Assembly: GCA_026391455.1 (NCBI GenBank)
Contig: JAPLEH010000023.1
Coordinates: 1-64,000, forward strand
DNA length: 64,000 nucleotides
From: Bacteroidota bacterium
GTDB lineage: Bacteria; Bacteroidota; Bacteroidia; Chitinophagales; Chitinophagaceae
Direction: 5' to 3'
This document shows positions 51,547 to 64,000 of the stretch, in pieces. A model generated the notes under the pieces. The model had not been told where the DNA came from, did not search any database, and worked only from the letters and a program-made list of their open reading frames with translations. Both the position numbers and the translations under genes were made by a program. Position 1 is the first letter of the stretch. Each line of letters begins with the position of its first letter.

Positions 51547-53934
51547 ATGCAGGAAAACACCTTCCCACTGGATGATTCTATGTTCAACAGCCGTCTTTCA
51601 TTCCGGCGGCTGGTGGCTATGCTCAAAAAAAACATTGCAGAAGGAAACCCCGGCATGCAAAAACTGTATGGCCAGGTGGTGGCCGAATTTGACAAATATC
51701 CACACCTGCTGGAAACCATTCATGAACTGTCTGTACTCCAACCACATAAAGAACTGATCGAAGAATTATTATCGGCTGTATTTCCCCCCACTACTGCCAA
51801 TTATATGTACGGCATTTTGTTCCCGTTCAAAAACCTGGCAGTCTATGCATCCCCGCTTTTTAAACAATTATTGGTGAAGCCGGGCACCAATCAGATCGTT
51901 ATCCCCTTTCACCAGAGCTATGAGAATATGGACCGGGAAAAACTGCAATTCGCTTACGGGATGATTCTCAAAAAATACATGGGGTACGATAGCCCGGAAA
52001 CCTCCCGCTCTATCTATCCGTTTGATGATGAAAAAACAGGTCTTACCCGGTACATGGAGCTCCGGCTCGATGGACGTTTTATTGATGTACTTCCGCTGGG
52101 TGAAATGCCCGAAATGCCACATAGCATGCTCGACCAGGTGTATAACCGCATCCTTACGCTGGAAGAACTGATGCAGCATATTCCGCTGAATAAATTTGTA
52201 TTTGAAGGTCTCACTGTAATCCGAATCAATGATGTAACAAGAGAAGCGGTGATCGCAGAAATGAAGAACCGCCTGCTTGATATCAATGCCTTGCCGGAAG
52301 CCACCAACTTTGCCGAACTGGAAAAACATATACAGGATCTCATCGGGCTAAAAGACCTGACCATTGGGGTAACTCCCTTTTTTAAAATCAAGGGGCACTA
52401 TGTGTATTCGGATATGCATGACCACAACAGTCTTTTGTTCCGCCATGTTCTGCATGGTGCTGAAAAAGATGAGATCAGTGATTATTGTAAACTGCTGTTT
52501 CGTGAAAACAGTCAGCCTATACTCTTTGAAACGCTGGATGAACAGGTGGCCAATGAAGTACAATGCCTCCCTTACTATTATAAAAATGGCGCCCGCAGTA
52601 TCATCATTTGTCCGTTGAAACAAAACAATGAATTGCTGGGCATGCTGGAGATAATGGCGCCTATACCGGGTCATCTGCGACCACCGCATATTGGCAAAAT
52701 TGAAGACGCACTTCCGCTTTTCACATTAGGATTGGAAAAGAGTCTGGAATTGCTCAATAACGAAGTGGAAAGGGTCATTCGTAAAAAGTTTACAGCGGTG
52801 CAGCCATCCGTGGAATGGAAATTTACGGAAGCCGCGCTGAACTATATCATTACCAAACGCAAACGCGATGATGTAAAGATCGATCGCATTTCTTTTCCGG
52901 ATGTATATCCGCTGTACGGTGCCATTGATATTCGTAATTCCAGTACAGAACGGTCGCGATCCATACAGCGGGATATACTTGACCAGTTGCATATGGCAAA
53001 AAAAGTGGTGGTGAAAGCACAGCAGGAAACCTCCTTGCCCTTATTGCAGGAAATCGAATTCAAGCTGGATAAGTTCATACATGCGGCATCTGACGTGTTG
53101 CAATCAGAAGAAGAACTGAGCATTCGTGAATTCATGCAGATACAGGTTACGTCGGTGTTTCATCACCTGCGGGCAGCGGGAGCCAAATTGAAAAATGAAA
53201 TTGACGAATACTTTGCCGCACTGGATCCGCAATTGGGTATGCTGTATCATCACCGCAAAGCCTATGAGCAAAGTATTTCCCGGATCAATGATACATTGGC
53301 TCATTTCATTGATAAAGAGCAGGCCGCTGCGCAAAAAGTATATCCGCATTATTTTGACCGGTTTGTAACCGACGGGCTGGAGTTCAATATTTTTATGGGG
53401 CAAAGCATCAGCCCCCGTAAAAAATTTGATGAGATCTACCTGCGCAATATGAAGATGTGGCAACTGACAGTACTGGCTAAAGCGGCCCGGGTAACGTATG
53501 AATTGGAAAGAGATCTCAGTCACCAGCTCAGTACCACCCAATTGATCCTGTCGCACAGCGAGCCGCTGGCGATCCTGTTTCGTACCGAAGAACGCAAATT
53601 CGATGTGGACGGAGCCTATAATATCCGGTATGAGATCGTAAAGAAGCGGATCGACAAAGTGCGTATCAAAGACACGAATGAACGTCTTACACAACCTGGC
53701 AAGATCGCAATCGTGTATTCACAATCACGCGATGCCGCCGAGTATTCCGAATACATTGAATTTCTCCAGAACAAAAAACTATTATCTCCTGGTATTGAGC
53801 ATCATGATCTGGAGGAGCTGCAGGGGGTGTCGGGTTTAAAGGCCCTGCGGGTAAATGTACATCTGGAAGATATCAAAAAGCCACAAGCCGTAGAATTGTC
53901 GGAAACAACAAGTGATCAGTTATTAGGGAAATAA
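51547..53934 (+). CDS. Large GAF-domain-containing protein of unknown function
   Basis: The product has 795 residues with no signal peptide or membrane helix, hence cytosolic. The region about 265-420 resembles a GAF domain (S-I-I-I-C-P-L-K-Q-N-N-E-L-L-G-M-L-E-I near 360-378 is the typical strand-turn-strand). Flanking parts are largely alpha-helical (F-N-S-R-L-S-F-R-R-L at the N-terminus; coiled-coil-like 540-720). No histidine-kinase, cyclase or phosphodiesterase motif is visible, so the GAF-like module probably senses a ligand without a known output. It is monocistronic, with its own promoter. I recognise no closer family. Confidence 0.65.
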   Translation: MQENTFPLDDSMFNSRLSFRRLVAMLKKNIAEGNPGMQKLYGQVVAEFDKYPHLLETIHELSVLQPHKELIEELLSAVFPPTTANYMYGILFPFKNLAVYASPLFKQLLVKPGTNQIVIPFHQSYENMDREKLQFAYGMILKKYMGYDSPETSRSIYPFDDEKTGLTRYMELRLDGRFIDVLPLGEMPEMPHSMLDQVYNRILTLEELMQHIPLNKFVFEGLTVIRINDVTREAVIAEMKNRLLDINALPEATNFAELEKHIQDLIGLKDLTIGVTPFFKIKGHYVYSDMHDHNSLLFRHVLHGAEKDEISDYCKLLFRENSQPILFETLDEQVANEVQCLPYYYKNGARSIIICPLKQNNELLGMLEIMAPIPGHLRPPHIGKIEDALPLFTLGLEKSLELLNNEVERVIRKKFTAVQPSVEWKFTEAALNYIITKRKRDDVKIDRISFPDVYPLYGAIDIRNSSTERSRSIQRDILDQLHMAKKVVVKAQQETSLPLLQEIEFKLDKFIHAASDVLQSEEELSIREFMQIQVTSVFHHLRAAGAKLKNEIDEYFAALDPQLGMLYHHRKAYEQSISRINDTLAHFIDKEQAAAQKVYPHYFDRFVTDGLEFNIFMGQSISPRKKFDEIYLRNMKMWQLTVLAKAARVTYELERDLSHQLSTTQLILSHSEPLAILFRTEERKFDVDGAYNIRYEIVKKRIDKVRIKDTNERLTQPGKIAIVYSQSRDAAEYSEYIEFLQNKKLLSPGIEHHDLEELQGVSGLKALRVNVHLEDIKKPQAVELSETTSDQLLGK

Positions 53935-55127: not shown

Positions 55128-57686
55128 TTAAAACTTAAATCCTAATCCCACCAGCGGAAGTTTATCCTCATCAGATATAGCGTAACTAACGGTGAGGACT
55201 ATGCGCCGCAGCGGTGAGAACCAGATACCACCGCCATAACCCACTCGCATCTTACTGTCTGCATCGTTTTTCACCCATACCCTTCCCGCATCCACAAAAG
55301 CATGAATACCGAATGCAGCCGGGAATAAATACGTTTTGAAATTGGCCAGACGTAAACGCATTTCGGCCTGGTTGTAAAATTTGGATTTGCCGGCAAACCT
55401 GAACTTACGATAGCCGCGCAGGTTATCTTCCGTACCTAAATACTGCGCCTGAAAGAATTCAAACTCATTGCTGTTGAATCCGGCTCCGATGCGATCGGCA
55501 AACGTAAGTCGGTCATGTATCAGGTCGAAGTAAAAGCTGATATCCGTATTCATTTGGGTAGTCTTGAATTTGGTACCGCCAATGCCTGACAAATGACGGA
55601 TCTTCGTTTCCCAATACACCCCTTTTTGCGGCAATGAGCGGTGGTCGCGCGTGTCCACATTCAACTGTACCAATGCACCGAAATATTTTTGCTTCGTAAA
55701 TATGGTAGCCGGATCAAGGCCATTCGCTCCTGTATTGGAAATAAAACGGGTCGCGTTGAACTTATCATCCGAATCCATTTCGTAATACTGGAATGTGGGA
55801 CCAAAACTCAACGATACCTTATCGGAAAAGCGCTGGCGAAGCAGCAGGGACGCATCGGCCAGATCATACCGTGCCCGATAAAACCGAAACTGCCCGGGTT
55901 GCGTTTTGTCATACACCGTATTGATACCATACCCGAAGAAATTGGTGGTATTATTGGGCGAACGCACATCAATATCCATGGTCAGATCAATCGATTTGCC
56001 GATCACGCTCATAAATTCATTGCTATAGCGGAAACGAAATGCATTGGTGGCTATTGAATGATTAGCGGCAAAAGAATGAGTGGCTTTGTACGGCTCCTTT
56101 CTGAATCCATGCCGCGTCAATTTAAAAGCGAGGCCAAGCGAAAGGCCATCATCCGGGTTGAAGCCGAATGAAATACCGGGGGCAAACCGGTTGTAGTTAT
56201 AATAAATACGCTTAAACGCATTTACATCCGTGTCATTCGACATATGATCCCTGAAGTTTCCCAGGATCTTGTTATTGCCGTCTTTGCGGTCATATACCAA
56301 TCCGCTTACCGATGATTTAGCCGTGTTCTCATACAGGTCTTCCCCGCCACCGCCAATCATACGTACTTTTATCTTATCGTTGGATCCCTTCATTACAAAC
56401 TGGTCATCGCCACCAAAACCATACAGACGTATTTCTTTGGTGTGCTGCGGATCATAAGTACGTTCATACATTTTTGATGCTTTGTTGCCGTCTTTATCCA
56501 ATTTGTATACTTGCAACAGGGTGGATCCATCTGCATTACGGGTAATCTCAAACAATTCTTTCTTATCACTTCCGGTTACTGTCACGATCTCGCTGAGAAA
56601 ATAGAAATACTCCAGCGTTTCCCGAAGCAGATGTTTACGGCGTTCTTTCAGTGTTTGAACGATCTTTGGTCCTGAGATATTCCTGATTTCAGCCGGCTGT
56701 TGTGCCAATGCTTTTTCCAGCGTTTCATCGGTCATTTGAGAAAGCAGTTTTTCCGTTGCATTCTTCCAGTCCTGCTCATTCAATTCATTTAAGAAAAAAC
56801 GATCGAGGTTACGCGCCGCAAAATTGAAAAGCCGGATACTGTTGGCAGCCGGTTTAAATCCTTCGATCTGGGGTACAAAGGATCTTCTTTTGGCAATACC
56901 CGGAAGCAATCCCTGGTTGATATAAAAAGCCTGATCGCGGTCGCGGGGTATGGGAAAAAATGTTTTGCCTTTCCCATTGGCATTATCCCTCGCACCCCAT
57001 TGCCATTGATCTTCGTGACGGTCGAGGTCCATTACATACATATCCATGATACGCGCGGTAAGCAATGCCTGCTGATCCACCCGGTTGTCATTATCCTCTT
57101 CAAGCTTTTCGGCCACTTCATCTGTATCATATCCTTTCTTCACCCCTTCCGGCAATACTTCTTCCAGTGTGGCCATCATATTGGCAAATTCTTTGCGAAA
57201 TTCTCCCAGCTTCGGATCATCGGGTATGTATACCAGTTTTACTTTCCCATATGGAATACCTGCAGCATCCTGCAGTGTTTGCATTGACAGACAGGCATAG
57301 GGATAAGAGGCCGATACCCCATCCGACACCAGATCGGCAGCGGCTTCACTTTGCAGATCACCCGGCAGGGTTTTACTGGTAATGAATTTTTCGATGGAGC
57401 GGATCTTAAACTGTCTGCCATCTACAGTTTCCAGCCGAAGCGATTTGGTTTGTTTACCACCCCCTCTTTTTACCGGTGTAAGGCCGCCCTGTTCCGTAGC
57501 CAGATTGATCACCGGCACTTTTACCGGGGTAGTCCATTCTTTGCGATAATTGGTTCCCATCCAGAAAGTGCGCGAGGATTTCATGTTGAAACTCGACCCT
57601 TTCCTGGATATGGAATCCATGGGCTGTGCATAAGCCGTATATGCGGAAAATAAAAAGCATAGTGTTAGCAGGGAGATTACTCTCAT
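55128..57686 (-). CDS. Outer-membrane Omp85-like barrel protein with N-terminal kinase-like domain
   Basis: The product has 852 residues with a signal peptide to about A-Y-A-Q. Residues about 40-400 form a domain shared with the divergent 1217-residue protein: a Gly-rich G-G-G-K-Q-T-K-S-L-R-L (75-85), Y-I-P-D-D-P near 153, M-D-L-D-R-H-E-D-Q-W-Q-W (219-230) and P-I-P-R-D-R-D-Q-A-F (245-254). The last two recall the catalytic and metal-binding loops of HipA/CotH/FAM20-type atypical kinases. Two RTX-like turns follow (G-F-G-G-D-D, G-G-G-G-E-D). The C-terminal half (about 500-852) is a D15/BamA-like 16-strand barrel ending in V-G-L-G-F-K-F. Kinase activity is unproven; the barrel call is firm. 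Confidence 0.8.
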   Translation of the reverse strand: MRVISLLTLCFLFSAYTAYAQPMDSISRKGSSFNMKSSRTFWMGTNYRKEWTTPVKVPVINLATEQGGLTPVKRGGGKQTKSLRLETVDGRQFKIRSIEKFITSKTLPGDLQSEAAADLVSDGVSASYPYACLSMQTLQDAAGIPYGKVKLVYIPDDPKLGEFRKEFANMMATLEEVLPEGVKKGYDTDEVAEKLEEDNDNRVDQQALLTARIMDMYVMDLDRHEDQWQWGARDNANGKGKTFFPIPRDRDQAFYINQGLLPGIAKRRSFVPQIEGFKPAANSIRLFNFAARNLDRFFLNELNEQDWKNATEKLLSQMTDETLEKALAQQPAEIRNISGPKIVQTLKERRKHLLRETLEYFYFLSEIVTVTGSDKKELFEITRNADGSTLLQVYKLDKDGNKASKMYERTYDPQHTKEIRLYGFGGDDQFVMKGSNDKIKVRMIGGGGEDLYENTAKSSVSGLVYDRKDGNNKILGNFRDHMSNDTDVNAFKRIYYNYNRFAPGISFGFNPDDGLSLGLAFKLTRHGFRKEPYKATHSFAANHSIATNAFRFRYSNEFMSVIGKSIDLTMDIDVRSPNNTTNFFGYGINTVYDKTQPGQFRFYRARYDLADASLLLRQRFSDKVSLSFGPTFQYYEMDSDDKFNATRFISNTGANGLDPATIFTKQKYFGALVQLNVDTRDHRSLPQKGVYWETKIRHLSGIGGTKFKTTQMNTDISFYFDLIHDRLTFADRIGAGFNSNEFEFFQAQYLGTEDNLRGYRKFRFAGKSKFYNQAEMRLRLANFKTYLFPAAFGIHAFVDAGRVWVKNDADSKMRVGYGGGIWFSPLRRIVLTVSYAISDEDKLPLVGLGFKF

Positions 57687-58040: not shown

Positions 58041-61000
58041 ATGAAAAAAAAGGCTGTACTGATCACCTGTTTAATATTGTTGCACTTTCCGCTTTTCGCC
58101 CAGGATACCATCAGCCAGCGTATCGTGCTGATTGGTGATGCCGGGCAACTCACCAATGGTAAGCACCCGGTGGTAGACGCGGTTCGCAATATGATCCCGC
58201 TTGATAATAAAACCACTATCCTTTTTTTAGGCGACAACCTCTATAAACATGGCTTGCCCGATGATCAGAATAAAGAATATTATAATCAGGCCAAAGCAGT
58301 ATTAGATTCACAATTATCCGTAGCCGATAATACCCCTGCCAAAGTGTATATGATCCCGGGAAACCACGACTGGGAAAACGGCAGCCGCAACGGCTTCGAT
58401 GCCATCGTCCGTCAGCAATTGTATGTGGACTTTCTCGGAAAGCCCAATGTAAAATACTATCCCGAAGATGGCTGCCCCGGCCCTGTAGAACTCATATTGG
58501 GAAAAGACAGCAGCGTAGCCGTTATCCTTTTCGACAGCCAATGGTGGATACACGCTTATGATAAACCCGAAATAGAATCCGATTGCTCCTGCAAAACCAA
58601 AGACGAATTAGTGACACAGATTGGTGACCTGCTGGCACGAAACTCCAAACGCCTGGTATTGATCGCCTGCCACCACCCTTTTGAGAGCAATGGTATGCAT
58701 GGCGGGTATTATACTCTTAAACAGCATATCTTTCCTTTTACTGATATAAAAAAATCCATGTACATACCGCTGCCTGTTTTGGGTTCCATATACCCGATTG
58801 CCCGCAGCGTGTTTGGCACCCCGCAGGATCTCAAGCACCCCAATTATGCCAACATGGTAGAGCAGATTACTGAAGTAGTAAAAGCTTCTTCTCCCAATGT
58901 GATTTTCGTATCGGGACACGACCATAATCTGCAGTACATTAAGAAAAATGGCTATAACTATATTGTGAGCGGCGGCGGATGCAAACAAAACCGCACATCG
59001 AAGAACAGGGCCAGTATGTACAATTCCACTGCCACCGGTTTTTCGGTAATGGAGATTTCAAAAAACAAAAATGTGACCGTTACCTTTTACACCGTGTCGG
59101 ATACGGCGGTACATAAAGATTATTCATCCACCATGATGAATTTTTCGACTCTGGCAGAAGCTCCCGTTGCTGCTAAAGAAGAGTCGGTACCTGTATTCAA
59201 AGACACGGTGAACAGAGCGGCCCGAAAAGATTATAAGCCGATCGGTGGATTGAAGAAATTTTTCATGGGGCAAAATTACCGGCCCGAATGGTCCACCCAG
59301 GTAAACATGAAAGTACTTCATCTCCGCACGGAAAAGGGCGGATTGAAAATAAAAAGCCTGGGAGGTGGTAAACAAACCCGCACCCTGCAACTCACCGACA
59401 AGCATGGCAAAGAATGGATATTGCGCAGCAGTATAAAAAACACCGCCAATATCATTCCGGATGTATATCGTAGTGAAATGGCGAAAAATCTGGTGACTGA
59501 ACTCAGTTCCGCCTCTCATCCCTATGCCTCACTGGTGATTCCCGAACTTGCCAATGTCCTCCATATTGCCGTACCGCATCCTGAATTATTTTTTGTACCC
59601 GATGATCCGGCATTGGGCATCTACAGACCCCTCTTTGCCAATACGGTATGCATGCTCGAAGAAAAAGAACCTTCCTTCGATGGCTCCAATACCAAAACAA
59701 CTGCGAAGACATTTAATAAGATGCTGGAAGAAAATGATCACCGCCCCGATCAGCCGGCTGTGCTGAGAGCCCGGTTACTCGATATGGTTCTCGGCGATTT
59801 TGACCGCCATTTCGATCAATGGAAATGGGGAAGTACCGACACCGGTAAAGGCAAGATCTATTATCCCATTCCCCGCGACCGCGATCAGGCTCTTTTTTAC
59901 TCAGATGGATTCCTGTTGCGGGCCATCAGCGGAAGGGCCATGCCATTTCTGAAAGGGTTCCGGTATCAGATTCCAAAGGTGAACTGGCTGGGGTATACCG
60001 CCCGCGACTTTGACCGGTTTTTCATGGCAGAGCTTAGTAAAGATCAGTGGAAAGAAACTATTTCAGCCGTACAGGAAAAATTGAGTGATACTGTGATCCG
60101 TTTCGCACTGAAAAAAATGCCTGTTGAAATACAATCGCTGCGTAATGAAAAAATTGCCGCTAAACTCATCAGCCGGCGCAACTTGCTTACCAGCGAAGGA
60201 ATGAAGTATTATAATTTCATTTCGCGGAAAGTAAATGTGGTGGGCAGCAACCTGAAAGAATATTTTAAAGTAAGCAAACAGGAGAATGGCCAACTACAGG
60301 TAAGGGTGTATGCACGCAATAAGGGAAATGATACCAGCTTCATTATGTACAACCGCATATTTGATCCGGCGGTGACGAAAGAAATTCGCTTATTTGGTTT
60401 GCACGATAATGATGTATTTGAAATAGATGAAGATGCCGTATCGCGCATCAAAATCCGTATTATTGGCGGCAAAGGAAGTGATACGTTTGATATACGCGGA
60501 CGTACCGAAGCTATCTTGTATGACCAGAAAGATGGAGGCAATGTGATCCGGCACAGCAACCATGCAAAAAACCGCTTCTCCCTATTTGAACCGGGTAACG
60601 ACAAGACCATCGTAGGCTTCAACTACAACACCACCCGCTTACCACAACTGATCATGGGTTACAATTCCGATGATGGCATGATCGTAGGAGCAGGTATTGC
60701 CCGCCGGACTTTTGGATTCCGCAACCTTCCTTATGCATCCGATCAGAAACTGGGGGTATTATATGCACCCGGCAGCAATGCCTGGCAACTCAACTATAAA
60801 GGGGAGTTCAATCACATCACACGCGGATATGACCTGCTGGTGAATATGAACTATGCCTCTCCTTCGCTGCATAATTTCTTCGGACTTGGTAACAATTCTG
60901 TTGCCCTGGAGGGAAAAGAAGAAAAATTCTATCAAACCCGCTATAAAACCTTTGAAGCAGAAGTGCTTGCAAGAAAGCGTGTGTTCGATAAACTTCACTT

Positions 61001-61694
61001 TATGATCGGCCCTTCCTATTTTCAATACAGCGCCAGCCGTGCCGATAACCTGAATAATATTTTAACGGACCGTAATCTGTCGGGACTGAATCAGGAAAGA
61101 ATATTCTCGCAAAAGAAATACCTGGGTGCCAAAGTGCTGATGCGTCTCGATAACCGCAACAATGAATTCTTTCCCACGCGCGGTATGCTCTGGAACAATC
61201 AATTGGTATCCATGGCCGGTATTGGAAGCGGCAGTAATAATATCACCAGTATCAGTTCTGATATGACCGTATATGCCAGTCTGAGTGACCCTGCCAAAGT
61301 AGTGGCGGTATTAAAATTCGGAGGTGGTAAGTTATTAAACAAGAACTATGAATTCTTTCAGGCCATGAATTTCGGTGCCAACAATGGCTTGCCAGCATTC
61401 CGCAAAAACAGGTATGCCGGCAGGGCTTCCCTCTATTCCGGCATTGAAATGAAATTCAAATTATTCGACCTTAATTCCTTTATGCTGCCTGGCACAGTTG
61501 GTATATCCGGCTTCTACAATACAGGAAGGGTATGGCAACCCGGAGATAACAGAGGTAGCTGGCATGGTGCTTATGGATGCAGTTTATATATCAATCCACT
61601 CAACCTGTTTACTATTTCCGGCAGTGCCGGGTTTATGGATAAAGAACGCTTTTACAATATTACCATTGGTACTAAAATGAACCTGACGTTTTAA
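58041..61694 (+). CDS. Fusion of metallophosphatase, kinase-like domain and Omp85-like barrel
   Basis: The product has 1217 residues with a signal peptide to about L-F-A-Q. Domain 1 (25-360) is a calcineurin-like metallophosphatase with every metal motif: G-D-A-G (32-35), G-D-N (64-66), G-N-H-D (107-110), C-H-H-P (210-213) and G-H-D-H (292-295). Domain 2 (400-780) is paralogous to the 852-residue neighbour: G-G-G-K-Q-T-R (441-447), G-D-F-D-R-H-F-D-Q-W-K-W (585-596), P-R-D-R-D-Q-A-L-F (611-619). Next come RTX-like turns (G-G-K-G-S-D-T-F). Residues about 860-1217 form the barrel, ending K-M-N-L-T-F. A phosphatase and a kinase-like domain held at the outer membrane in one chain is unusual. The partner gene is divergent, 354 bp away. 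Confidence 0.83.
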   Translation: MKKKAVLITCLILLHFPLFAQDTISQRIVLIGDAGQLTNGKHPVVDAVRNMIPLDNKTTILFLGDNLYKHGLPDDQNKEYYNQAKAVLDSQLSVADNTPAKVYMIPGNHDWENGSRNGFDAIVRQQLYVDFLGKPNVKYYPEDGCPGPVELILGKDSSVAVILFDSQWWIHAYDKPEIESDCSCKTKDELVTQIGDLLARNSKRLVLIACHHPFESNGMHGGYYTLKQHIFPFTDIKKSMYIPLPVLGSIYPIARSVFGTPQDLKHPNYANMVEQITEVVKASSPNVIFVSGHDHNLQYIKKNGYNYIVSGGGCKQNRTSKNRASMYNSTATGFSVMEISKNKNVTVTFYTVSDTAVHKDYSSTMMNFSTLAEAPVAAKEESVPVFKDTVNRAARKDYKPIGGLKKFFMGQNYRPEWSTQVNMKVLHLRTEKGGLKIKSLGGGKQTRTLQLTDKHGKEWILRSSIKNTANIIPDVYRSEMAKNLVTELSSASHPYASLVIPELANVLHIAVPHPELFFVPDDPALGIYRPLFANTVCMLEEKEPSFDGSNTKTTAKTFNKMLEENDHRPDQPAVLRARLLDMVLGDFDRHFDQWKWGSTDTGKGKIYYPIPRDRDQALFYSDGFLLRAISGRAMPFLKGFRYQIPKVNWLGYTARDFDRFFMAELSKDQWKETISAVQEKLSDTVIRFALKKMPVEIQSLRNEKIAAKLISRRNLLTSEGMKYYNFISRKVNVVGSNLKEYFKVSKQENGQLQVRVYARNKGNDTSFIMYNRIFDPAVTKEIRLFGLHDNDVFEIDEDAVSRIKIRIIGGKGSDTFDIRGRTEAILYDQKDGGNVIRHSNHAKNRFSLFEPGNDKTIVGFNYNTTRLPQLIMGYNSDDGMIVGAGIARRTFGFRNLPYASDQKLGVLYAPGSNAWQLNYKGEFNHITRGYDLLVNMNYASPSLHNFFGLGNNSVALEGKEEKFYQTRYKTFEAEVLARKRVFDKLHFMIGPSYFQYSASRADNLNNILTDRNLSGLNQERIFSQKKYLGAKVLMRLDNRNNEFFPTRGMLWNNQLVSMAGIGSGSNNITSISSDMTVYASLSDPAKVVAVLKFGGGKLLNKNYEFFQAMNFGANNGLPAFRKNRYAGRASLYSGIEMKFKLFDLNSFMLPGTVGISGFYNTGRVWQPGDNRGSWHGAYGCSLYINPLNLFTISGSAGFMDKERFYNITIGTKMNLTF

Positions 61695-61805: not shown

Positions 61806-62459
61806 ATGAAACCCTCATTCAGAAAGCTACAGGCAGGCCGGACCGGTTTATTTGTGTTTGCCTCCCTGTTATTTATCACAATTACGATACTGGTGTTTGT
61901 ACAACACAGCCAGTGGCCGGATGATCCTGTATTTGCTTTCATCTCCCCCTACCGGAATGCAGACTTTACCCGCAGCATGAATTTCGTTACTTTTTATGGT
62001 AATCATGATTTCCTGGTACCCGCAAACTTGCTGCTGGTGATCCTGTTCTTTGTACGAAAAAACAAAGGGCTTGCATGGTTTACCTTAGTTACGGCGCTCA
62101 GCAGCCTGGGTCTCATGTCGCTGATCAAAAACCTCGTCCAGCGTCATCGCCCTGTAGCGCCATTGGTATCGGGCGTAACGAATTATAGTTTTCCCAGCGG
62201 CCATGCCTTTATGAGTGTGGCTTTTTACGGGTTGCTGATCTGGCTGGCCCTCACCTATTATAGTAAAGACAAGTGGAAACAGCGGCTCCTGATTTTGTTT
62301 TTATTGTTGCTGATATTTACCATCGGTTTCAGCCGCATCTACCTGCGACTGCATTATACCACCGATGTAGTTGCAGGATTATGTCTGGGCACGATGTGGT
62401 TGCTGATCCTGCTTACATTGGCGGAAATATGGTTATTCCGGCAAAAAAAAAGAAGCTGA
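61806..62459 (+). CDS. PAP2-family membrane phosphatase
   Basis: The product has 217 residues with about six transmembrane helices. The three phosphatase motifs are present: K-N-L-V-Q-R-H-R-P (K-x6-R-P), F-P-S-G-H-A-F (P-S-G-H) and S-R-I-Y-L-R-L-H-Y-T-T-D (S-R-x5-H-x3-D). Members dephosphorylate lipid phosphates such as phosphatidate, undecaprenyl diphosphate or lipid A precursors at the outer face of the inner membrane. The gene follows the metallophosphatase fusion by 111 bp on the same strand; shared transcription is possible. A TTTCTTTG box (61768-61775, one mismatch) could be its own promoter. Confidence 0.92.
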   Translation: MKPSFRKLQAGRTGLFVFASLLFITITILVFVQHSQWPDDPVFAFISPYRNADFTRSMNFVTFYGNHDFLVPANLLLVILFFVRKNKGLAWFTLVTALSSLGLMSLIKNLVQRHRPVAPLVSGVTNYSFPSGHAFMSVAFYGLLIWLALTYYSKDKWKQRLLILFLLLLIFTIGFSRIYLRLHYTTDVVAGLCLGTMWLLILLTLAEIWLFRQKKRS

Positions 62460-62461
62460 AT

Positions 62462-64000
62462 TTATTTCTTATAAACAAATTTCAATATAGTGGCAATTCC
62501 TTCCCCACCCTCATTGGAAATATACAAATCGCCGTTGGGCGCAAAGGTCATGCCCTCGGGCTGATTGTACAGTACGGGATCCAGTCGTATGGCCTGTTCC
62601 GGTTTGCCGTCTTTACTGGCCACTACCAGCAATTTTCCCACTGAAGCCACGATATACAACTTCCCATTTACCGGATTGATACCCGCCGCAGAAGGTTTGA
62701 ACTCCGCCATTTCATCCTTGAGCATTTTTTGTATTTCGCTGATCTGAATGGTATATACCGGGGAAGGACTGAATGTTTTGGTGGCCAGATCGAAGCGATA
62801 GGCGGCACGTATTGCATCTTTCTCATGATGGCAATCCTTGCACAACAATATCAGCGATTTGCCATCTCCATCGAGGTACATGGTTTCGAATTCATTTTTG
62901 GGAATACCCAATGAATAGGTTTGGGTGGAGAAGGTACTGTCCTTAGTATCCACCTGTACTACTTCACCTGTACTGACTAGCATATACACGGCGTCCGGGG
63001 TATATACGATATCTTCATAATCACTCTTACCCCCGAATTTTATTTTGCCGGCAGCATTGTCATTTTTGTTTGCAAAATCAATTGTAAAAATATCGCCTTT
63101 CTCATCGTTTTCACCAAGTATCACATCCCTGCCGGGAACCCACGCCATACCGGAAATCTCATGCAGGTGTTTACCCAGTTCCATTTTATCATCTGGAGTA
63201 GCAAAGTTGTACCCGGAACTGTCCGTTGTTTTATTTTCAGTCGCGCTGTTTTCATTGTACCGGAATTTTAAAATGGTGGGTTTTGAATTCACCCCTTCAT
63301 TGGTAATGTACAGGTCGCCACGGGGAGAAAAAGTGATGCCTTCCGGTTGCGGGAACATTTTAGGTGACAGACGATACACGGCTTCCACTTTACCATTGAG
63401 ATCGGCAATCGCCAGTTGGTTACTCGCAGAAGAAAGAATGAATAATTTTTTCAACCTCGGGTGAATGGCTGCGGCGGAGGGTTGAAACTTTGAAGACTTA
63501 GCCGGTGCCATTTCCTTCACTTTAGCCGCATCGATGGTAAATATCGGTTTATTGTCAAACCCGATAGAATCCGGGTAAAAAGCAAAAGCGCTTACCGAAT
63601 TGCTGTTGTCGGAGCCACAATTCTTACAGATCAATACGAGTGCATGGCGGGATGGATCGGTATACAATGTTTCAAAATCATTGTCGCCGGCAATTTTGAT
63701 ACTGGCTTCATCTACCGGGGGCAGCATTTTACCAGTTAAGTCGCGGGTGAGTTTTACGAGGTGACCTTTGCTTTTTAAAATATAGACAGATGCACCATAG
63801 ATGGCCACATCTTCATAATCTTCGGTTGAATTTCCGATAGGTGGCTCTTCGGTAGAAATACGAAGGTCTTTATCCAGAATGAACAGGCGGCCGGTTTCAT
63901 CGTTCACTGCATAGAATACCTTATTCACAGAATCATACACGAGCCCGGAAATTTCGCGCAGTTTAAGGTCCATTTTGGTGACCACTGCTTCGGAAAAATT
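62462..64000 (-). CDS. Tandem SdiA-regulated-type propeller protein, 5' end outside the window
   Basis: The reverse-strand frame is still open at the right edge (it reads N-F-S-E-A-V-V-T-K-M-D-L-K-L at its visible start), so the N-terminus and any signal peptide are outside. A GTG at 63985 and ATG at 63973 are internal candidates only. The 513 visible codons encode two similar halves. Each starts with L-R/H-E-I-S-G-L/M and a V-N-D-E-x-G or E-N-D-E-x-G motif, then has an L-I-C-K-N-C or L-L-C-K-D-C motif and ends with P-E-G-I/M-T-F-S/A-P-x-G-D-L-Y-I-x-N-E-G. This fits the YjiK/SdiA-regulated propeller family, here duplicated. Function unknown. It is convergent with the PAP2 gene. Confidence 0.8.
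   Translation of the reverse strand, partial: NFSEAVVTKMDLKLREISGLVYDSVNKVFYAVNDETGRLFILDKDLRISTEEPPIGNSTEDYEDVAIYGASVYILKSKGHLVKLTRDLTGKMLPPVDEASIKIAGDNDFETLYTDPSRHALVLICKNCGSDNSNSVSAFAFYPDSIGFDNKPIFTIDAAKVKEMAPAKSSKFQPSAAAIHPRLKKLFILSSASNQLAIADLNGKVEAVYRLSPKMFPQPEGITFSPRGDLYITNEGVNSKPTILKFRYNENSATENKTTDSSGYNFATPDDKMELGKHLHEISGMAWVPGRDVILGENDEKGDIFTIDFANKNDNAAGKIKFGGKSDYEDIVYTPDAVYMLVSTGEVVQVDTKDSTFSTQTYSLGIPKNEFETMYLDGDGKSLILLCKDCHHEKDAIRAAYRFDLATKTFSPSPVYTIQISEIQKMLKDEMAEFKPSAAGINPVNGKLYIVASVGKLLVVASKDGKPEQAIRLDPVLYNQPEGMTFAPNGDLYISNEGGEGIATILKFVYKK

Follow-up and report, generated by a model that had tools for sequence, protein, structure and literature searches.

The Omp85/TpsB proteins were divided into ten subfamilies by Heinz and Lithgow (2014; PMC4104836), two of which bear on the gene considered here. 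As characterized in the accessible sections of that paper, the 'Metallo' subfamily carries the domain PF00149, has no POTRA domain and is labelled a metalloprotease, and the 'noNterm' subfamily has a barrel related to the 'Metallo' barrel and no N-terminal extension. The window analysed here, a 64,000-nucleotide stretch of the Bacteroidota bacterium contig JAPLEH010000023.1 (Chitinophagaceae), contains a gene whose single open reading frame encodes a protein of 1217 residues that comprises a metallophosphatase of the purple or tartrate-resistant acid phosphatase (TRAP) type, a middle domain with a predicted kinase-like fold, a beta-rich domain and an Omp85/BamA-type barrel (Table 1). This combination on one chain is conserved across Bacteroidota with both catalytic sets mostly kept, and the gene is linked to genes for an inner-membrane PycTM protein and a beta-propeller lipoprotein. 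The position of PF00149 N-terminal to an Omp85 barrel without POTRA is that described for 'Metallo', of which the 1217-residue protein is likely a member; the 'Metallo' description differs in terming the domain a metalloprotease, and a kinase-like domain goes unmentioned in the accessible sections (PMC4104836). An earlier note, made from the letters of the window, had been aware of no described system with this architecture. The pairing of phosphatase and barrel was in fact published in 2014, whereas neither the kinase-fold domain nor its gene neighbourhood was found described in the open-licence literature (titles and abstract openings, a scope mostly outside subscription papers and preprints). 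Three further papers (PMC10281475, PMC12611786 and PMC12045153) are, in their accessible parts, not about this protein.

Other described systems resemble single parts of the chain. The phosphatase domain shares its metal motifs (GDNxY and GHDHNLQY), sequence and fold with TRAP and GAP50, but is here a piece of a larger membrane protein. The type Vd autotransporters PlpD and FplA also join an enzyme to an Omp85-type barrel on one chain; they have a patatin domain and POTRA, whereas no POTRA was found here. The kinases CotH and FAM20, which are secreted or lumenal, and CtkA/HipA have the predicted kinase-like fold in common with the middle domain, the catalytic-loop and metal aspartates being in register with CotH. 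They differ in that Pfam gives no match to them here and that the domain is here fused to a phosphatase and an outer-membrane barrel.

Domains of the 1217-residue protein

The earlier note had described a single chain with five phosphatase metal motifs, D-R-H and D-R-D motifs in the middle domain and an Omp85 barrel, and on this the open reading frame, Pfam and the alignments agree. Pfam places Metallophos (PF00149) at residues 27-227 (E 1.2e-7) and Omp85 (PF01103) at residues 929-1173 (E 1.2e-6), both passing the cut-off. Between them no Pfam family is found at E up to 1 and none in NCBIfam, which for the whole protein returns just an Omp85 model below cut-off and a weak unrelated match. The metal motifs GDAG, GDNLY, GNHD, CHHP and GHDH (within GHDHNLQY) follow the set GDxG, GDxxY, GNHD, H and GHxH, which we take to be that of purple acid phosphatases and TRAP, and the domain matches this type of metal site with the tyrosine ligand included. 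Across 42 aligned phosphatase domains D65, H211, H212 and H293 are kept in all 42, H295 in 40, D33 in 39, and Y68, N108 and H109 in 37 each. By sequence, the domain is related in the PDB to mammalian purple acid phosphatases and to Plasmodium GAP50. PF00149 being a calcineurin-like phosphoesterase family and the metal site showing motifs of the purple-acid-phosphatase type, the metalloprotease identity given in the accessible sections on 'Metallo' (PMC4104836) was rejected. In PADLOC the phosphatase region drew a weak 'Endonuclease effector' match (E 1.2e-5).

For the middle domain a two-lobed, protein-kinase-like fold is predicted. The AlphaFold2 (AF2) model of residues 390-850, built from 21 sequences, has a predicted local distance difference test score (pLDDT) of 84.0 and a predicted template-modelling score (pTM) of 0.83, and Foldseek returned 865 PDB matches to it at E up to 10, 23 of them at E up to 0.001. 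The best 50 of the 865 are all kinase-fold proteins, judged by title or as known proteins, with CtkA at the top (E 1.1e-6, TM score by target 0.51-0.54) and with RIO2 (1.1e-5), the Golgi casein kinase FAM20 (2.4e-4), CotH (1.2e-3) and PI4KII also present. Structure prediction and fold search had been set by the earlier note as the test of its proposed kinase-type fold, with a non-kinase fold as the adverse outcome, and kinase folds were what they returned. In BFVD 14 proteins matched with E no higher than 0.001, among them several named kinases; the top three are large phage proteins, two of unassigned function and one named ADP-ribosyltransferase.

The family profile scored 30.5 against a CotH profile built from 20 proteins, a score reached in none of 100 column shuffles (best shuffle 22.8) and above the 24.8 that the HipA and CotH profiles score against each other, taken as a yardstick. 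This alignment pairs D588 with the aspartate of CotH's N-x-D motif and D613 with the W-D aspartate. The CotH family PF08757 matches neither the 1217-residue protein nor its kinase-only relatives, and CotH membership was therefore dropped despite the shuffle result: the domain may be said to work like CotH, not to be a CotH. A match of the middle domain to the phosphatase alignment in hhalign proved to be an artefact of the shared linker.

Conservation of the catalytic positions is far above chance for sequences down to about 30% identity. Among 82 middle-domain rows, the catalytic loop keeps D586 in 82, W594 in 81, R589 and H590 in 80 each, D588 in 78 and Q593 in 77 (Asn in the remaining 5); the metal motif keeps R614 in 81 and D613 and D615 in 80 each; K466 is kept in 81; and the glycine-rich loop keeps G442 in 81, G441 in 78, G443 in 76, Q445 in 75 and L449 in 74.

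The full-length model is a moderate one (20 sequences; pLDDT 71.5, pTM 0.56). Counted by hand in the strand list, its barrel has 16 long strands. BamA chains are the top PDB matches of this model (E from 1.3e-8), and GAP50 stands at rank 42. The barrel is thus that of the Omp85 superfamily, and the classical POTRA is lacking, as Pfam, searched up to E 1, gives no such family before the barrel. The beta-rich domain in front of it contains a stretch, GGKGSDTF (residues 809-816, about 60465-60488), noticed by eye, which we presume to be RTX-like; Pfam has no match there.

Table 1. Positions in the window of the three-domain gene, its parts and the genes around it (L060 is the stretch scanned for the window's own gene).
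Feature	Residues	Positions	Strand	Basis or remark
Whole gene: phosphatase, kinase-fold domain, beta domain, Omp85 barrel	1-1217	58041..61694	+	single open reading frame, 1217 aa
Putative signal peptide, ends ...LFAQ, without lipobox	1-21	58041..58103	+	by eye
Purple-acid-phosphatase/TRAP-like metallophosphatase domain	~22-365	58104..59135	+	PF00149, PDB matches, metal-site conservation
Predicted kinase-fold domain	~400-729	59238..60227	+	model, Foldseek, CotH profile, conservation
Glycine-rich loop GGGKQTRTL	441-449	59361..59387	+	conservation; role by analogy
Catalytic-loop motif D-F-D-R-H-F-D-Q-W	586-594	59796..59822	+	conservation, CotH alignment
Metal-binding (DFG-like) motif P-R-D-R-D-Q-A	611-617	59871..59891	+	conservation, CotH alignment
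Beta-rich domain between kinase fold and barrel	730-850	60228..60590	+	strands in model
16-strand Omp85/BamA-type barrel	~864-1217	60630..61691	+	Pfam, full-length model, fold matches
Divergent paralogue, 852 aa, kinase-fold domain and barrel without phosphatase		55128..57686	-	Omp85 E 6.9e-20
PAP2-family membrane phosphatase, directly downstream		61806..62459	+	Pfam; downstream in 5/13 near relatives
SdiA-regulated (PF06977) beta-propeller lipoprotein, running past the window edge		62462..64000	-	Pfam; 548 aa in L060
PycTM-domain gene, beyond the propeller gene, just past the window		contig 65064-65396		L060
Conserved neighbour, 795 aa, no Pfam family		51547..53934	+	relatives in 18/52 loci

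Distribution and architectures in Bacteroidota

One genome contig scan found near relatives of the whole protein at 13 loci, with identities of 48-75%, within Chitinophagaceae and elsewhere in Bacteroidota. In a survey covering Bacteroidota, the middle domain occurs in at least 148 of 392 genomes and in 76 of 178 genera, a lower bound obtained with a single query sequence. A search of phage records gave no match, and the five plasmid records with relatives are all from Bacteroidota, judging by their names. Three architectures were seen among the loci examined, namely three-domain, kinase-barrel and kinase-only proteins, a few of the counted pieces being locus ends. On a quick tree of 81 rows (43 three-domain, 26 kinase-barrel and 12 kinase-only), the three-domain label needs 9 changes, 7 of them forced by well-supported branches; the phosphatase has therefore been gained or lost repeatedly, and the kinase-fold domain with its barrel is the persisting core from which the phosphatase is separable. 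One three-domain frame is broken inside the barrel (L009:7468-7577, on a contig of a metagenome-assembled genome), which could be an assembly error.

In two loci (L054:838-4793 and L055:3129-7097) kinase, phosphatase and barrel are encoded by three adjacent genes on one strand, two of the products being lipoprotein-like, and in L081 a stand-alone phosphatase gene lies in one run with kinase-barrel, propeller, PPK1 and HD-PycTM genes. Because they occur as adjacent separate genes or in one gene run, these parts belong together. Four kinase-only proteins (L048, L049, L056 and L057) start with a single membrane helix and a number of others with a lipobox-like sequence, both judged by eye, which places the domain in the periplasm.

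These relatives bear on the possibility of type Vd-like display, in which the Omp85 barrel would export the N-terminal domains to the cell surface to act on outside substrates. A BamA-type barrel behind an N-terminal enzyme with no POTRA found, and the precedent of PlpD, are consistent with such export, which is also suggested for 'Metallo' by Heinz and Lithgow in the accessible sections of their paper (PMC4104836). However, the kinase-only relatives are anchored by a membrane helix or lipoprotein-like and by eye have no acid-rich export signal, the enzymes of the split operon (L054 and L055) are separate, lipoprotein-like products, and PycTM, to which the gene is linked, resides in the inner membrane, so that display seems unlikely.

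The window itself holds a second member of the family in the divergent paralogue, which is 34% identical to the 1217-residue protein over 827 residues; such a divergent pair of three-domain and kinase-barrel genes recurs in 6 of the 13 near relatives. The kinase-barrel type probably belongs to 'noNterm', judging from the accessible sections of PMC4104836, although that subfamily is described there as lacking an N-terminal extension, and the paralogue has a 480-residue N-terminal part with the kinase-fold domain.

Conserved gene neighbourhood

The conserved linkage of the kinase-fold domain genes is, like the adjacent paralogue, a further finding that the earlier note had missed. Around the 13 near relatives, a match to the HD-PycTM reference and one to the SdiA-regulated propeller were each found in 12, one to a nucleotide cyclase in 10 and one to PPK1 in 4; the locus without HD-PycTM and propeller matches (L005) ends just past the cyclase. 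Linkage was also counted in 27 genomes with the three-domain gene: that of the window and 26 others selected to represent a spread of families. PycTM (PF18967) is present in 26 of these (33 copies); in 23 it lies no more than 10 kb from the chosen gene, against a chance expectation of 0.17, or in 25 if a second middle-domain frame in G072 and G219 is included. The propeller family PF06977 is present in 18 and near in 16 (chance 0.10), and PPK1 is present in 25 and near in 6 (chance 0.18). Of the 392 genomes surveyed, the middle domain and PycTM occur together in 129, the former alone in 19, the latter alone in 25 and neither in 219; PycTM thus occurs in 129 of 148 genomes with the middle domain and in 25 of 244 without it (odds ratio 59, Fisher p 8e-56, a test that ignores shared ancestry). 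In the 116 genomes for which both positions are listed, the two lie within 5 kb in 77 and within 10 kb in 96.

PADLOC assigned two neighbours to PycTM (E 6.2e-17) and PycC (E 1.3e-14), families to which the effector and the cyclase of Pycsar belong, and a cyclase gene accompanies most of the near relatives. A component of a Pycsar-type anti-phage system is nevertheless a very improbable reading, because the linkage is stable across the phylum, unlike that of a roaming defence island. Also, the PycTM protein has an HD domain in the three tested and is stably linked to an outer-membrane protein, in contrast to Pycsar, and the stretch scanned around the gene of the window (L060) showed no cyclase next to it. 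Some PycTM frames have only about 200 residues and therefore leave no room for an HD domain as well. Given the Bacteroidota-wide link between PycTM and the kinase-fold domain, such genes may be miscalled as Pycsar defence.

The propeller starts like a lipoprotein, by eye, in the nine proteins printed, and in 12 of 52 loci its frame overlaps the start of the three-domain gene, starts being set by the first ATG. It also matches the phytase-like family PF13449 (E 5.8e-8). This match, the PAP2 phosphatase downstream in the window and the nearby PPK1 genes would suit a role in phosphate or polyphosphate handling, in which the chain and its neighbours harvest or remodel envelope polyphosphate, inositol phosphates or lipid phosphates. 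Yet PPK1 lies elsewhere in 19 of the 25 genomes that have it, the window's genome included, and harvest needs no kinase fold; we consider this role distinctly unlikely. The propeller of the window is doubled, with two PF06977 stretches, whereas most of the relatives printed have about 285-300 residues. Promoter and terminator scans gave results near the shuffled level (17 vs 16.1 and 11 vs 8.4, respectively).

A putative phosphotransfer switch in the envelope

Taken together, we give an even chance to the reading that the chain is a bifunctional phosphotransfer switch, anchored in the outer membrane and facing the periplasm. The barrel would serve as the anchor. Omp85 N-termini are periplasmic by default, and the enzyme domains, both of which would face that compartment, therefore most likely work there. 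The kinase-fold domain would transfer a phosphate or a related group to a substrate in the envelope, from which the phosphatase would remove it; readout of the phospho-state may then involve the propeller lipoprotein together with the PycTM protein of the inner membrane, within envelope homeostasis. BamB stands beside BamA, and by loose analogy the propeller lipoprotein may partner the chain; at the inner membrane the PycTM protein may act as a reporter or responder. ATP is not expected in the periplasm; polyphosphate is a candidate phosphate donor on account of the PPK1 linkage, but in most genomes PPK1 lies elsewhere. It is plausible that opposing activities reside on one chain and use a donor other than ATP, as the earlier note had proposed. 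It is also tempting to speculate on a trans-envelope phospho-switch, in which an outer-membrane kinase would use polyphosphate or a related donor, the TRAP-type domain would reverse its action, and the phospho-state would gate the BamA-type barrel and be reported to the HD-PycTM protein; this fuller scheme is quite improbable.

Several results weigh against the switch reading. The similarity to kinase folds is distant (best TM score by target 0.54, root-mean-square deviation over 7 Å), the hhalign probability of the CotH profile match is just 6.5%, and a PDB sequence search with a 21-row profile of the middle domain found no kinase (best E 0.93). Against HipA the family profile scored 19.9, a value reached by 11 of 100 shuffles and hence not significant; the domain was therefore not assigned to HipA even though CtkA is its best fold match, and the HipA family PF07804 has no match in the 1217-residue protein. 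The kinase-barrel architecture without phosphatase is common (26 of the 81 tree rows), so that opposing activities on one chain are not essential, and the linkage counts ignore shared ancestry. The phosphatase domain is degenerate in 5 of 42 rows, and a catalytic aspartate of the kinase-fold domain (D588 or D613) is changed in 6 of 82: D613N, with D615 also lost, in the three-domain copies of L012 and L013, where the adjoining kinase-barrel paralogue keeps both residues; D588G in L038 and L069, a single genus pair, where the phosphatase on the same chain is degenerate too; and D588S in the kinase-only paralogues L052 and L053.

The loss of a catalytic aspartate in these six rows would fit a pseudokinase sensor, in which the kinase-fold domain would do no more than bind a ligand and thereby control the barrel or the phosphatase, as would the degeneration of both enzymes on one chain in L038 and L069 and a periplasm in which ATP is not expected. 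On the other hand, at least 76 of the 82 rows retain the catalytic and metal positions. The pseudo-enzyme that the earlier note had put forward is consequently not favoured as a general explanation, and we judge the sensor improbable.

If the kinase-fold domain of this putative switch is active, phosphorylation would take place, across a large phylum, in a compartment thought to be free of ATP, by a system that escaped notice for want of a family model. For the Omp85 'Metallo' group, hitherto classed as metalloprotease, a testable function would follow, and the reading of every PycTM gene as anti-phage defence would be put in question.

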